Assembly: GCF_001375535.1 (NCBI RefSeq)
Contig: NZ_LN831197.1
Span: forward strand, 1,892,622-1,956,621
Direction: 5' to 3'
Source of the DNA: Bacillus niameyensis
GTDB lineage: Bacteria > Bacillota > Bacilli > Bacillales > Bacillaceae_C
Length of the DNA: 64,000 nucleotides
The notes under the pieces are model-generated. The model had not been told where the DNA came from. It did not search any database and was given only the letters and a program-made list of their open reading frames with translations. Made by a program: the position numbers and the translations under genes. Shown piece by piece: positions 2,622 to 6,384 of this stretch; the stretch's first letter is position 1, and each line of letters opens with the position of its first letter.

Positions 2622-3329
2622 TTATTCAGTATGAAGTAACAATTGATCTAAATCCATTATTTTAATTTTCTTTTTCGGTAACTGTTTAATCAATCCAAGT
2701 TCTTCTAGAGTAGTAAATTTACGGCTGATTGTTTCTGGTGTGGTACCAAGATACGAGGCTAAATCCTTTTTGGACATTGGTAAGATAATCGTTGGACTAT
2801 TGCCACTTCCCTTTTCAACATTCTCAGCTAAAAAGGATATAATGCGGGTTTCTACATTTTCAATCGCTACTTGTGTGGTTTGTTTTTCAGAATCCTTCAA
2901 TCGTATCGTTACTTCTGATAGTATTTTTAATGAGATCTGCGGATATTCCACCAAATACTTCTGTAATTCCTCTCGTTTAATTAAACAAATGGATGTATTT
3001 TGTAATGCTTCCGCATAATTTTCATGAATACTTCCAGGTTGGAAAATGGCAACTTCACCTGTAAAATCACCGGGATTTAAAATGCGAACAAGTTGTTCTT
3101 TTCCAGAATCCGATAAGCGGTAAATCCGAGCCTTACCTGAATTGATAATATATAAGGTATCATCTTCCTCATCTGCACGGAATAACATTTCCCCTTTTTG
3201 CAGATGAAGTGTCTTGGCAGATTCCGCAATCAAATCCATTTGTGAGTCTTCCAGATGGTTGAAGATGGGAACGATACGAATACATTCTGCATGTCCATGT
3301 TGGTGATGACAACATTGGTTTTGTTCCAA
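2622..3329 (-). CDS. Crp/Fnr-family regulator with Fnr-like cysteines
   Basis: 235 residues: an N-terminal Cys/His-rich tip (Cys6, Cys7, Cys16), a cyclic-nucleotide-like beta barrel, a long dimer helix and a C-terminal winged helix. Cys115 sits in TSICLIKREEL, where E. coli FNR has the fourth cluster ligand Cys122 (TSMVC). Four cysteines thus suggest an oxygen-labile [4Fe-4S] cluster; a metal site using the adjacent histidines is an alternative. The recognition helix has ETISRKF, the same E-x2-S-R that in E. coli FNR reads TTGAT half-sites, and TTGAT-type boxes occur in front of both local transcription units. The start is TTG with AGGAGAGG 5 bases upstream. Last gene of the HMA/mini-Ric/HMA/fnr unit, so probably autoregulated. 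Confidence 0.85.
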   Translation of the reverse strand: MEQNQCCHHQHGHAECIRIVPIFNHLEDSQMDLIAESAKTLHLQKGEMLFRADEEDDTLYIINSGKARIYRLSDSGKEQLVRILNPGDFTGEVAIFQPGSIHENYAEALQNTSICLIKREELQKYLVEYPQISLKILSEVTIRLKDSEKQTTQVAIENVETRIISFLAENVEKGSGNSPTIILPMSKKDLASYLGTTPETISRKFTTLEELGLIKQLPKKKIKIMDLDQLLLHTE

Positions 3330-3393
3330 AATAACCTCTCCTTTTTATAAAAAGCCTAAGAGGGCATCTTAGGCTTCCTTTCTATTCACTCGA

Positions 3394-3627
3394 TTAAGCA
3401 GGTTTTACCTTTGATTTGACAACAGGATATCCTAAGTCTTCAATTGTCTTTTCGATATCGTTAATAGCAACTGCTTCTGAATCAAAATCTACTTTTACTT
3501 TACTAGCATTGAACATTACTTTCAAGCTATCTTGATTCACACCGTTTATTCCTTTCACCGCATTTTCAATCTTTTGGAGACAAGATGGGCAAGATAAGGT
3601 TTCTAATTGAATCGTTGCTTTTTGCAT
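3394..3627 (-). CDS. Free HMA metal-binding domain protein (copy 1)
   Basis: 77 residues forming one heavy-metal-associated domain of the CopZ type, with the metal-binding motif LSCPSC at residues 11-16. It is 60/77 identical by my alignment to the protein at 4025-4258, so the two arose by tandem duplication around the mini-Ric gene. The ATPase at 4438-6291 lacks the usual N-terminal HMA domain, so these proteins probably act as its soluble metal-delivery partners; that is inference. GGGGGA precedes the ATG. Metal unknown (Cu, Zn or Fe are all possible). Confidence 0.85.
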   Translation of the reverse strand: MQKATIQLETLSCPSCLQKIENAVKGINGVNQDSLKVMFNASKVKVDFDSEAVAINDIEKTIEDLGYPVVKSKVKPA

Positions 3628-3690
3628 AAATCATTTCCCCCTTCATTTTTTAACGACCGTAACCAATTTATTCTTTTGTTTTGAGTTACT

Positions 3691-3990
3691 TTAATCCTGA
3701 TATGCTTTATCTACTTCTGATAGCATCTCGAATGTGCCTGCATACGTTTCACATACATCTCCAGGAATGGTGTAGTTGTCTGTGATTTTTCGTAATTGAG
3801 CAAATTCAGCATCTAAGTCAGGTTTGTTCGTACCAGCGTCTTTTACTTTTCCACTAATTGTTTTAAACAATTCACGTACTTCAAAGGCTTCTGGGTGATT
3901 CTTACCATGGGCCCGTGTTATTGCAGTGGTGTATAAATCCAGTTTTTCAAAATGGTTGTTTACTACTTCGTAAAATGTTTGTTCAGACAT
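3691..3990 (-). CDS. Miniature Ric/ScdA-like protein (partial hemerythrin-like)
   Basis: 99 residues. The N-terminal half (NNHFEKLDLYTTAITRAHG then NHPEAFEV) resembles the first helix pair of ScdA/YtfE (Ric) di-iron proteins, which repair iron-sulfur clusters; the C-terminal half (LRKITDNYTIPGDVC) resembles their later TSSYEPPIEAC region. It has no N-terminal CxxCC ScdA_N domain and no counterparts of the later iron-ligand histidines: only His13, His28 and His32 remain, against about 220 residues and five to six ligand positions in full Ric. It may bind iron differently, work as a partner, or have a new role. It sits between two HMA genes under a probable FNR box, which fits a redox or nitrosative stress role. 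Similarity is from memory, not a search. Confidence 0.6.
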   Translation of the reverse strand: MSEQTFYEVVNNHFEKLDLYTTAITRAHGKNHPEAFEVRELFKTISGKVKDAGTNKPDLDAEFAQLRKITDNYTIPGDVCETYAGTFEMLSEVDKAYQD

Positions 3991-4024
3991 TATTCGTCCC
4001 CTCTTTCTTGTGACTTTTTGATTC

Positions 4025-4357: not shown

Positions 4358-4372
4358 GTTTTGTTTAGATAT

Positions 4373-4404
4373 GGGAAGCATTTTTTTAAGAAAGAATACT
4401 TCCC
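4373..4404 (-). terminator. Hairpin after the P-type ATPase gene
   Basis: A 10-bp inverted repeat (GGGAAGTATT / AATGCTTCCC with one G-U pair) lies between the ATPase stop and the second FNR box. It lacks a clear T tract, so it may be a weak terminator or only an RNA-stabilising hairpin. Confidence 0.35.
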
Positions 4405-4437
4405 GTTACTGTTTTGTAGAGAGTATACCTTTTTCAT

Positions 4438-6291
4438 TTAGCCTCTCAAACGATATCTCAATAATCTCATACCATTCAAGATGACTACTAAGATACTTGC
4501 TTCGTGAACCAACATCCCGATTGACATATTCATCCATGCACTAAATAGTAGGCTGGCAAGTAAGACTAATACCACACCAACTGCTATGGTGATGTTCTGT
4601 TTCATGTTTCTTGAAGTTGATTTTGTTAATCCTAATGCGTGTGGTAAACGACTAAGGTCAGAATTCATTAAAACGACATCCGATGTTTCAATTGCAACAT
4701 CTGTTCCACTTCCCATGGCGATTCCGATATCCGCTAAGGCTAATGAAGGACTATCATTCACTCCGTCACCGACAAAGGCAATGATTTGGCCTTTTGCTTG
4801 CATTTTTTCAATATATGCGGATTTTCCTTCTGGAAGCATATGACCGTGTGCTTCTGTCAATCCAAGTTCTCGAGCAACTAAATCTACGGTTCCTTGGTTG
4901 TCCCCTGAAAGAACGACTAGGTTTTTGACTCCAAGTTTTTTTAGGTTTTGAAGATCTTTTTTAACACCTGGACGAATTTGATCCCGAATACCCATCAGAA
5001 CTTTTAATTCTCCATCGACCGCAGTTAACACAAGAGAATTCCCGTTTTTCTCAAAGCGTTCGACGTCTTTTTTAGCTTTTTCGCTTAATTTCACATTTTC
5101 TTTTTCCATTAAAGCTACATTACCAACGGCTATATGATGAACACCTATTTTTGCTACAATTCCGCCACCTTTAACGACTTCGGTTTCTTCAACAGTAGAG
5201 AAAGTTGTCTCGCCAATATCCTGTAGGACAGCTTTTGCTAGTGGGTGGTCCGATTCACGCTCCACACTAGCTAAGTATCCTAGAGCTTCCTCAGTATTCC
5301 TTCCGTAAAATTCTTTTTCGGCAACTTCAGGGTTTCCTACTGTCAATGTTCCTGTTTTATCAAATACGATCGTATCTACTCTGCTAAAATCATTGATCAC
5401 TTCACTACCTTTTAAGAGTACACCATTACGTGCACCGTTTCCGATTCCAGCAACGTTCGATACAGGTACCCCGATCACTAATGCTCCAGGACACCCTAAA
5501 ACGAGAATCGTGATTGCCAGTTCGGTACTTCCTGAAAATATCCAAACAATAATACCAAGAACTAAAACAGCTGGTGTATAGTATTTTGAGAATCGATCAA
5601 TAAAACGTTCCGCTTCTGATTTGGAATCTTGTGCCTCTTCAACTAATTCAATAATTCTACCAAATGTTGTATCCTCTCCAACACGGTCAGCTCGAATTTG
5701 AATCGTTCCATTTTCTAAGATAGAACCTGCAAATACTTCAGAATCGACCTTTTTGCTTACTGGAACAGACTCTCCGGTAATACTTGCTTCATTGATGTGG
5801 CCTTCTCCTGTTAACACGGTTCCATCTACAGGGACTTTTGCACCCGTTTTGACTAATAAAATATCACCTTCATCTACATCATCGACATCAACTTCTTCAA
5901 ATTCTCCATTTTCCATTTGCTTTAAAGCACTTTCTGGTGCCAGCTCTGTTAATTCTTTAATGGCAGAACGTGTTCTGTTCAAAGTACGTTGCTCCAAGTA
6001 AGAACCAAATAAGAATAAGAAAGTAACGATGGCTGATTCCTCATAATTTTGAATCAATACTGCTCCAACTACTGCAATGGTAACTAAAACATCAATACTG
6101 ACAACTTTTACTTTTAATGCCTGATAGGCTTGAATCGCAATTGGTGCTACACCAAGAATAGATGCAATGATGAGCGACCAATTGAAAATGGCCATGTTGT
6201 CTAAGGAAAATCGTCCTAAGAATGCAAGTGCAATCAAAATTGCACTGATCAGTGTAATGGAATTCTTTTTACTTAATATATATCTTTGCAT
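4438..6291 (-). CDS. P1B-type heavy-metal ATPase with CPG motif
   Basis: 617 residues with the full P1B core: early membrane helices, TGES phosphatase motif (ASITGESVPVSK), membrane motif LVLGCPGALVIG, DKTGT phosphorylation site, HPLAKAV (the His-Pro of the nucleotide domain) and GDGVNDSPSLA. The membrane metal site reads Cys-Pro-Gly instead of the common CPC, SPC, CPH or TPC, so specificity cannot be read from known classes. There is no N-terminal HMA domain; two free HMA proteins encoded downstream probably replace it. It has its own promoter with a perfect FNR box, so expression should respond to oxygen or cluster state through the nearby regulator. Probably exports a transition metal across the cytoplasmic membrane. 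Confidence 0.88.
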   Translation of the reverse strand: MQRYILSKKNSITLISAILIALAFLGRFSLDNMAIFNWSLIIASILGVAPIAIQAYQALKVKVVSIDVLVTIAVVGAVLIQNYEESAIVTFLFLFGSYLEQRTLNRTRSAIKELTELAPESALKQMENGEFEEVDVDDVDEGDILLVKTGAKVPVDGTVLTGEGHINEASITGESVPVSKKVDSEVFAGSILENGTIQIRADRVGEDTTFGRIIELVEEAQDSKSEAERFIDRFSKYYTPAVLVLGIIVWIFSGSTELAITILVLGCPGALVIGVPVSNVAGIGNGARNGVLLKGSEVINDFSRVDTIVFDKTGTLTVGNPEVAEKEFYGRNTEEALGYLASVERESDHPLAKAVLQDIGETTFSTVEETEVVKGGGIVAKIGVHHIAVGNVALMEKENVKLSEKAKKDVERFEKNGNSLVLTAVDGELKVLMGIRDQIRPGVKKDLQNLKKLGVKNLVVLSGDNQGTVDLVARELGLTEAHGHMLPEGKSAYIEKMQAKGQIIAFVGDGVNDSPSLALADIGIAMGSGTDVAIETSDVVLMNSDLSRLPHALGLTKSTSRNMKQNITIAVGVVLVLLASLLFSAWMNMSIGMLVHEASILVVILNGMRLLRYRLRG

Positions 6292-6342
6292 GTTGATTCC
6301 CCTCCAATTTCATTTTCATTTGTATTCCTTGTTGATGACTCT

Positions 6343-6384
6343 AGTATAGGATGTTTATATGAAATAAAGATTGATTAGGATCAA
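6343..6384 (-). promoter_or_regulatory. Perfect FNR box and promoter of the P-type ATPase
   Basis: TTGATTAGGATCAA (6371-6384) is a perfect TTGAT-N4-ATCAA FNR site. On the minus strand a TATACT -10 lies at 6348-6343, which predicts a start near 6336 and places the box centre at -41.5, the same geometry as the second unit. It could also affect the divergent aldo/keto reductase remnant that starts just beyond it. Confidence 0.8.

Follow-up and report, generated by a model that had tools for sequence, protein, structure and literature searches.

The first 6.4 kb of the stretch of DNA analysed here (the window; 64,000 nucleotides of the Bacillus niameyensis genome) carries on its minus strand the genes for a P1B-type metal ATPase, two HMA-domain metallochaperones, a short protein derived from the repair protein Ric (mini-Ric) and a regulator of the CRP/FNR family, with one FNR-type box ahead of the ATPase gene and another ahead of the HMA/mini-Ric genes (Table 1). 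A preliminary description, made from the sequence alone, had read these boxes as two class II FNR-type promoters linked to the ATPase, the two HMA proteins and the Ric-derived protein, and our analysis supports this reading of the module.

Both boxes are confirmed, TTGATTAGGATCAA at 6371-6384 and TTGACGTATATCAA at 4344-4357, and on the minus strand each is followed after exactly 22 base pairs (bp) by the hexamer TATACT (6348-6343 and 4321-4316). The centres of box and -10 element lie 32 bp apart and transcription is predicted to start at about 6336 and 4309, so that at both promoters the 22-bp spacing places the box centre at -41.5; this is the layout of a class II FNR/CRP promoter (site centre at -41.5, 22 bp to the -10 element), given predicted start sites. 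The boxes, -10 elements and centres had been proposed at just these positions, and the exact coordinates bear this out, as do the following counts the further argument that the same geometry would hardly arise twice by chance. The exact composite of box (TTGAY-N4-RTCAA), 22-bp spacer and TATACT occurs twice in the window and in none of 200 dinucleotide-preserving shuffles; with up to two mismatches tolerated, the window has two matches, both perfect, against 0.31 expected, and two matches were reached in three of 100 shuffles.

Table 1. Features of the locus and its immediate neighbourhood (window coordinates).
Feature	Position	Strand	Remarks
FNR-type box A, TTGATCCTAATCAA on minus strand	6371..6384	-	ATPase promoter, centre -41.5
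-10 element TATACT, ATPase promoter	6343..6348	-	22 bp behind box A; predicted +1 ~6336
P1B-type metal ATPase, 617 amino acids	4438..6291	-	CPG in transmembrane helix 6, VHEAS in transmembrane helix 8, without an HMA domain of its own
FNR-type box B, TTGATATACGTCAA on minus strand	4344..4357	-	HMA/mini-Ric promoter, centre -41.5
-10 element TATACT, HMA/mini-Ric promoter	4316..4321	-	predicted +1 ~4309
HMA-domain metallochaperone 1, 77 amino acids, CPSC	4025..4258	-	Pfam PF00403
mini-Ric, 99 amino acids, Ric/ScdA-derived	3691..3990	-	without DFCC domain and most di-iron ligands
HMA-domain metallochaperone 2 (HMA2), 77 amino acids, CPSC	3394..3627	-	Pfam PF00403
intrinsic-terminator-like hairpin, HMA2/regulator spacer	3347..3376	-	kept in related loci
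CRP/FNR-family regulator, 235 amino acids, TTG start	2622..3329	-	N-terminal CCHHQHGHAEC, C115, recognition helix PETISR
transposase pair orfA/orfB adjoining the module	864..2005	+	within the repeated unit of the own assembly

The alternative that both boxes are palindromes arisen by chance, with a coincidental -10 match, could draw on the 58 single boxes in the organism's own 4.68-Mb genome (the reversed pattern gives 15) and on the eight of 14 own-genome matches with a -10 element that fall within open reading frames (ORFs) of at least 174 codons; boxes are frequent within coding DNA, and their density is by itself uninformative. Against it stand the absence of the exact composite from the 200 shuffles and its conservation across named loci, phylum genomes and plasmids, which together refute a chance origin and leave it with a vanishingly small probability. 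Composite sites tend to carry AAAC before the box and a run of T behind it; having been chosen by pattern, they are informative for their flanks alone.

A genome search with a mini-Ric alignment gave 36 loci, which by their record titles belong to Bacillales and Lactobacillales (the named loci), and at least one strict box lies near the mini-Ric gene in all 36, within the stretch around the locus. Across genera, several of these mini-Ric proteins share 96-98% identity with the window protein, a sign of horizontal transfer. Promoters were counted upstream of gene starts in these loci and three more (own genome and two stretches of genome G099), 39 in all, and solely where a strict box lay no more than 220 bp from the tblastn start; the count omits L074 and L076-L078, which come from the same genomes as L094, L102, L104 and L112, and two extra, boxless copies in own-genome stretch L067 add no promoter to it. 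Thirty-eight of the 39 loci yielded 73 promoters, 52 of them distinct, while L110 has none at this distance and carries boxes elsewhere. TANNNT stands exactly 22 bp behind the box in 51 of the 52, the exception being one base short, and reads TATACT in 45 of the 51, TAAACT in three, TATAAT in two and TATTAT in one. Gene order varies, from ATPase first in the window to box-HMA-Ric-box-ATPase in several Lactobacillales, and each block retains its own box. The preliminary description had asked for the same gene set with boxes in related loci, and this check came out positive in the loci (36/36 boxed, 51/52 promoters at 22 bp) and likewise on plasmids; its remark that such a site is unusual in a bacillus does not hold, as the TTGAY-N4-RTCAA box is the usual one for this regulator group in Bacilli.

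Across 398 genomes of the phylum, the own genome included, the string box-N22-TATAMT occurs at 16 sites in 14 genomes. Three of these are in the own genome (two at the module locus and one overlapping ORFs), and five of the remaining 13 stand directly before the module (in G454, G397, G687, G585 and G466), the one in G466 preceding a truncated ATPase remnant alone. Outside the Bacilli, the clostridial species Acetoanaerobium noterae has box-N22-TATACT followed by Ric and ATPase genes. The ATPase itself is found in 66 of the 398 genomes at E-values up to 1e-130.

Plasmids carry the same code. Records from Listeria monocytogenes and Enterococcus faecalis hold FetB, Dps, regulator, HMA and ATPase genes (the ATPase gene of the circular E. 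faecalis record runs across the record start), and in each the block has four class II promoters with 22-bp spacing, before Dps, regulator, HMA and ATPase. Eight further records (L. lactis, L. paracasei, L. plantarum, Leuconostoc, S. equorum, Mammaliicoccus, E. faecium and a second E. faecalis) contain 19 box-headed blocks, all with the 22-bp spacing; L. lactis plasmid pVF50 has ATPase, HMA, an annotated 'DNA-binding protein' and a Crp/Fnr gene with two class II boxes. Among 72,556 plasmid records, 433 match the ATPase at E-values up to 1e-100, and in 339 of these the identity is at least 60%; three of the stretches carrying module relatives contain predicted drug-resistance genes. In one plasmid paper the gene table annotates a copper-translocating ATPase, a copper chaperone, a Crp/Fnr regulator and Dps singly (PMC5663981).

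The set of genes in the preliminary 'HMA/mini-Ric/HMA/fnr unit' stands, but its description as a single unit simplifies matters, given the terminator-like hairpin between HMA2 and the regulator. This hairpin with its run of T is found in the window, and 19 of 20 other spacers compared have it too (L074 duplicates L094; the longer spacer of L096 folds differently). In the Listeria and E. faecalis plasmids this arrangement is replaced by a separate box for the regulator.

Mini-Ric is homologous to the Ric/ScdA/YtfE di-iron repair proteins. The window protein scores 40.7 bits with the Ric model, far below the cut-off of 204.7; all 46 members of the mini-Ric alignment match this model at E-values up to 0.01, and the mini-Ric profile matches two ScdA structure sequences. 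Relative to full-length Ric, the DFCC domain is missing, as are the H...E segment, the histidine of the third helix and the C-terminal HIHLEN stretch. We compared six mini-Ric with 10 full-length Ric ORFs at the seven ligand positions of YtfE and found one of the seven kept, a histidine. With most ligands lost, mini-Ric cannot form the usual di-iron site; it descends from the Fe-S repair protein Ric and probably serves as a helical adaptor or apo-scaffold, not as a di-iron enzyme. It may be described as a conserved Ric remnant without most of the metal ligands.

The regulator is linked to the pump beyond this locus. With the own genome left out (397 phylum genomes), it is found at E-values up to 1e-25 in 45 of the 65 genomes with the ATPase (E up to 1e-130) and in 50 of the 332 without it (p ~7e-18, not corrected for phylogeny), and it lies within 3 kb of the ATPase gene in 30 of the 65. 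Judged from these sequences, regulator, box and pump belong together. The proposal that the module is 'self-contained' is not supported in this form: the regulator gene is within the stretch in 20 of the 36 named loci and absent from it in 16, and each of the 14 genomes searched among these 16 has an orthologue elsewhere, at a best identity of 45-66%. A second regulator in G099 (L073:11690-12477; 57-58% identity) has its own box and TATAAT and adjoins a full module and several other boxes.

The recognition helix bears out the reported ETISR, as PETISR in the window protein, and E[TS][IL]SR is present in all 22 further regulator ORFs. This helix (E..SR) is that of E. coli-type FNR, and the likeness to E. 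coli FNR extends to the box and the class II -41.5 spacing. It ends at the cysteines. The 'four cysteines at FNR-like places' are there in number, at positions 6, 7, 16 and 115 of the window protein, but they do not amount to the conserved FNR set. In an alignment of 29 distinct regulators (start codons picked by script) only C16 and C115 are invariant (29/29), whereas the C6 and C7 columns hold cysteine in 22 and 20, and H8 and H9 are each kept in 26. The C16/C115 pair is always present in the 22 further ORFs (21 distinct), 12 of which (11 of the distinct ones) have no other cysteine; in some regulators, among them that of the window, there are at least four. A four-cysteine [4Fe-4S] sensor is thus not the shared mechanism, and a metal site formed from the histidines and C16/C115, or a disulfide switch, would fit these sequences better. 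Oxygen sensing is no more likely than the sensing of metal or thiol status.

Three readings of the signal can be weighed on this basis. The regulator could be a true oxygen-sensing FNR with an anaerobic [4Fe-4S] switch, the module handling reduced metals (Fe2+, Cu+) when oxygen is absent. Against this stand the 12 of 22 two-cysteine regulators, among them plasmid ones whose blocks retain the box, and the presence of the unit in A. noterae, a strict anaerobe. The FNR-type box and recognition helix and the four cysteines of the window protein would agree with it, as would the FNR-like FlpS of S. suis, which is reported as oxygen-sensing with its cluster chemistry left open (PMC5039431); on balance we consider an oxygen switch unlikely. 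The proposal that the module is anaerobically induced is not supported as written, since the box-Ric-ATPase arrangement also occurs in A. noterae and the own genome encodes a further CRP/FNR protein (L071:7120-7809) that ends, like B. subtilis Fnr, in a cysteine motif, here CENCPVEIC.

A dithiol/disulfide switch, in which the reduced or disulfide state of C16-C115 sets DNA binding and metal is an indirect cause of oxidative stress, would account for exactly two invariant cysteines (29/29) and for Dps under the same promoter on plasmids, and the FLP of L. casei is said to be of this type. It leaves the near-universal histidines before C16 unexplained, and the targets are metal transporters and carriers and not peroxide enzymes, so that we hold it to be rather unlikely. 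We tentatively propose, at somewhat under even odds, a metal-sensing branch of the CRP/FNR superfamily, in which the N-terminal His/Cys site and C115 would bind ferrous iron or another divalent metal, whereupon the protein would act as class II activator of a portable module for efflux and sequestration (CPG ATPase, HMA chaperones, di-iron-free mini-Ric, Dps). Such a metalloregulatory logic would lie outside Fur, PerR and MntR; it would travel among Bacilli, Listeria and Enterococcus plasmids included, with relatives in Clostridia.

The ATPase is a heavy-metal P-type ATPase above cut-off (TIGR01525, 561 bits, cut-off 346), and it also exceeds the cut-offs of the cadmium model TIGR01512 (468 bits) and the copper model TIGR01511 (424 bits). 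The loci examined contain 99 distinct P-type ATPase frames, unrelated ATPases included, and 86 of them have CPG; an HE motif in transmembrane helix 8 (TM8) was caught in 61 of these 86, and the TM8 pattern found no match in the other 25. VHEAS in TM8 of the window protein aligns with VHEGS of the P1B-4 pump 7qbz; the ATPase combines CPG with a P1B-4-like HE[A/G/L]S motif. P1B-4 pumps are Fe2+ exporters in several bacteria (PMC10654040, PMC7762939), B. subtilis PfeT among them (PMC9993123), and their regulators, where known, are Fur and/or PerR (PMC7762939). Annotated neighbours of plasmid and related modules include Dps, ferritin-like proteins, FetB and VIT1/CCC1; ferrous iron is hinted at by Dps genes that share the promoter and by the FetB and VIT1 genes in the vicinity. 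That the pump instead moves Cu, Zn or Cd, as an ordinary soft-metal resistance with an unusual regulator, is suggested by the cadmium and copper model scores, by HMA proteins that score best with CopZ models, below cut-off, and by multicopper oxidase and CadD genes near some module copies; the Dps, FetB and VIT1 neighbourhood, the P1B-4-like TM8 motif and CPG rather than CPC speak against it, and it appears doubtful, though credible.

Taken together, we interpret the locus, with a probability of roughly 0.6, as part of a mobile metal-detoxification regulon under a two-cysteine, histidine-rich FNR-like (Flp-type) class II activator. This reading builds on the sites, their geometry and conservation, the co-occurrence and the domain anatomy. 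The regulator dimer would bind TTGAY-N4-RTCAA at -41.5 and activate RNA polymerase at the TATACT -10 element in class II fashion, turning on the CPG ATPase and, in parallel, HMA/mini-Ric/HMA, with read-through of the terminator into the regulator gene giving a damped positive autoregulation. Since the ATPase lacks an HMA domain, the separate HMA proteins would supply it with the metal that it exports. The substrate is most likely Fe(II), then Co, Zn or Cd, and the signal most likely metal or thiol status, perceived through C16/C115 and the N-terminal histidines and possibly modulated by oxygen.

Several points weigh against this interpretation. P1B-4 ATPases have SPC in transmembrane helix 6, and the ATPase here has CPG instead; HMA CxxC domains usually carry Cu, Zn or Cd; and Dps also responds to oxidative stress. 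In the eight plasmid records none of the VIT1/CCC1, multicopper oxidase or CadD genes is headed by a box, and no composite site precedes FetB in L115 and L116 (in the Leuconostoc record the FetB start lies outside the stretch examined). With VIT1 and FetB neighbours lacking boxes, the case for iron is guilt by neighbourhood only. Twenty of the 65 ATPase genomes have no regulator match at threshold. The box also fades further out: 28 of the 29 closest mini-Ric/ATPase loci have at least 120 bp upstream, and a strict box stands at the head of 13 of these 28, 12 of them with the -10 element at 22 bp, while of 20 distant HMA-ATPase-regulator loci, 18 of which have enough upstream DNA, four of the 18 have a strict head box, two at 22 bp, and eight of the 20 have a strict box anywhere in the stretch. 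These counts indicate a promoter code that is tight in Bacilli and looser or different beyond.

The flp genes of L. lactis reportedly lie in an operon with a P-type ATPase gene. FlpA is counted among the metal-homeostasis regulons of Lactobacillales (PMC3616900). For these two reasons a system of this kind is already known, and the regulator conforms to the Flp type as a two-cysteine FNR-like protein linked to a metal P-type ATPase. We liken the module to the Flp regulons (FlpA/FlpB of L. lactis, FLP of L. casei, FlpS of S. suis) by its FNR-like regulator and metal homeostasis; its own features are mini-Ric and two HMA genes, the strict -41.5 at two promoters, Bacillales hosts and a regulator often in trans. 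With P1B-4 ATPases (PfeT, FrvA, PmtA; 7qbz) it shares a P1B pump, whose TM8 HE-x-S motif aligns with that of 7qbz, but it has CPG, separate HMA proteins and an FNR-like activator in place of Fur and/or PerR. A literature search, incomplete for the Flp papers, found among the papers listed no description of the promoter code or of the mini-Ric/HMA/ATPase set, and as far as these searches show, the mini-Ric/HMA set, the strict two-promoter code, the Bacillales range and the two-cysteine/His sensor have not been described together. For a metal-detoxification cassette that plasmids of food and host-associated Firmicutes carry, the module thus supplies a promoter code open to testing. A metal signal would add a class of metalloregulator to the CRP/FNR superfamily, and an oxygen signal would tie anaerobiosis to metal efflux in Gram-positives. 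In genome G399 (L158), a site of the module's design, box-N22-TATACT, stands about 120 bases before an ORF that by eye resembles Hcp, which brings the HcpR-type CRP/FNR regulators of anaerobes into comparison and suggests an overlap with nitrosative-stress control.

A broader regulon in the own genome was considered and rejected. The relaxed composite has 14 matches there: the window pair, a paralogous HMA-CPG ATPase-regulator locus (L069:5323-8402; box-N22-TATGAT, matched on both strands; 45% identity for ATPase and regulator), a candidate in L062, an intergenic composite in L058 with no gene in the correct orientation, and the eight within ORFs. At the L062 site (1501-1542; box-N22-TATCCT) 26 bases separate the end of the -10 element from the listed start of a flavodoxin-like ORF, possibly a further target, whose neighbours are hemerythrin-like and NarI-like (names by eye). 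A third exact composite (C6:1879857, plus strand) overlaps two ORFs and is probably due to chance.

The own genome holds five identical regulator-HMA-Ric-HMA copies with the transposase pair, by eye of IS3 type (L067:3732-16946, L068:6331-14620). The four extra copies have lost the box and begin directly after it, at AAGCTATACT, and their junctions contain one or two N; they are possibly an assembly artefact, as the N would allow, or a real amplification, and were given no weight because of these N. A TIGR04076-family gene lies at 346-711 of the window, and in the stretches around the copies it recurs beside four of the five repeated modules. At 6399-7182 an aldo/keto reductase match is split across two ORFs and looks broken, and in G466 (L152) the same box is flanked by an ATPase remnant and an aldo/keto reductase remnant.

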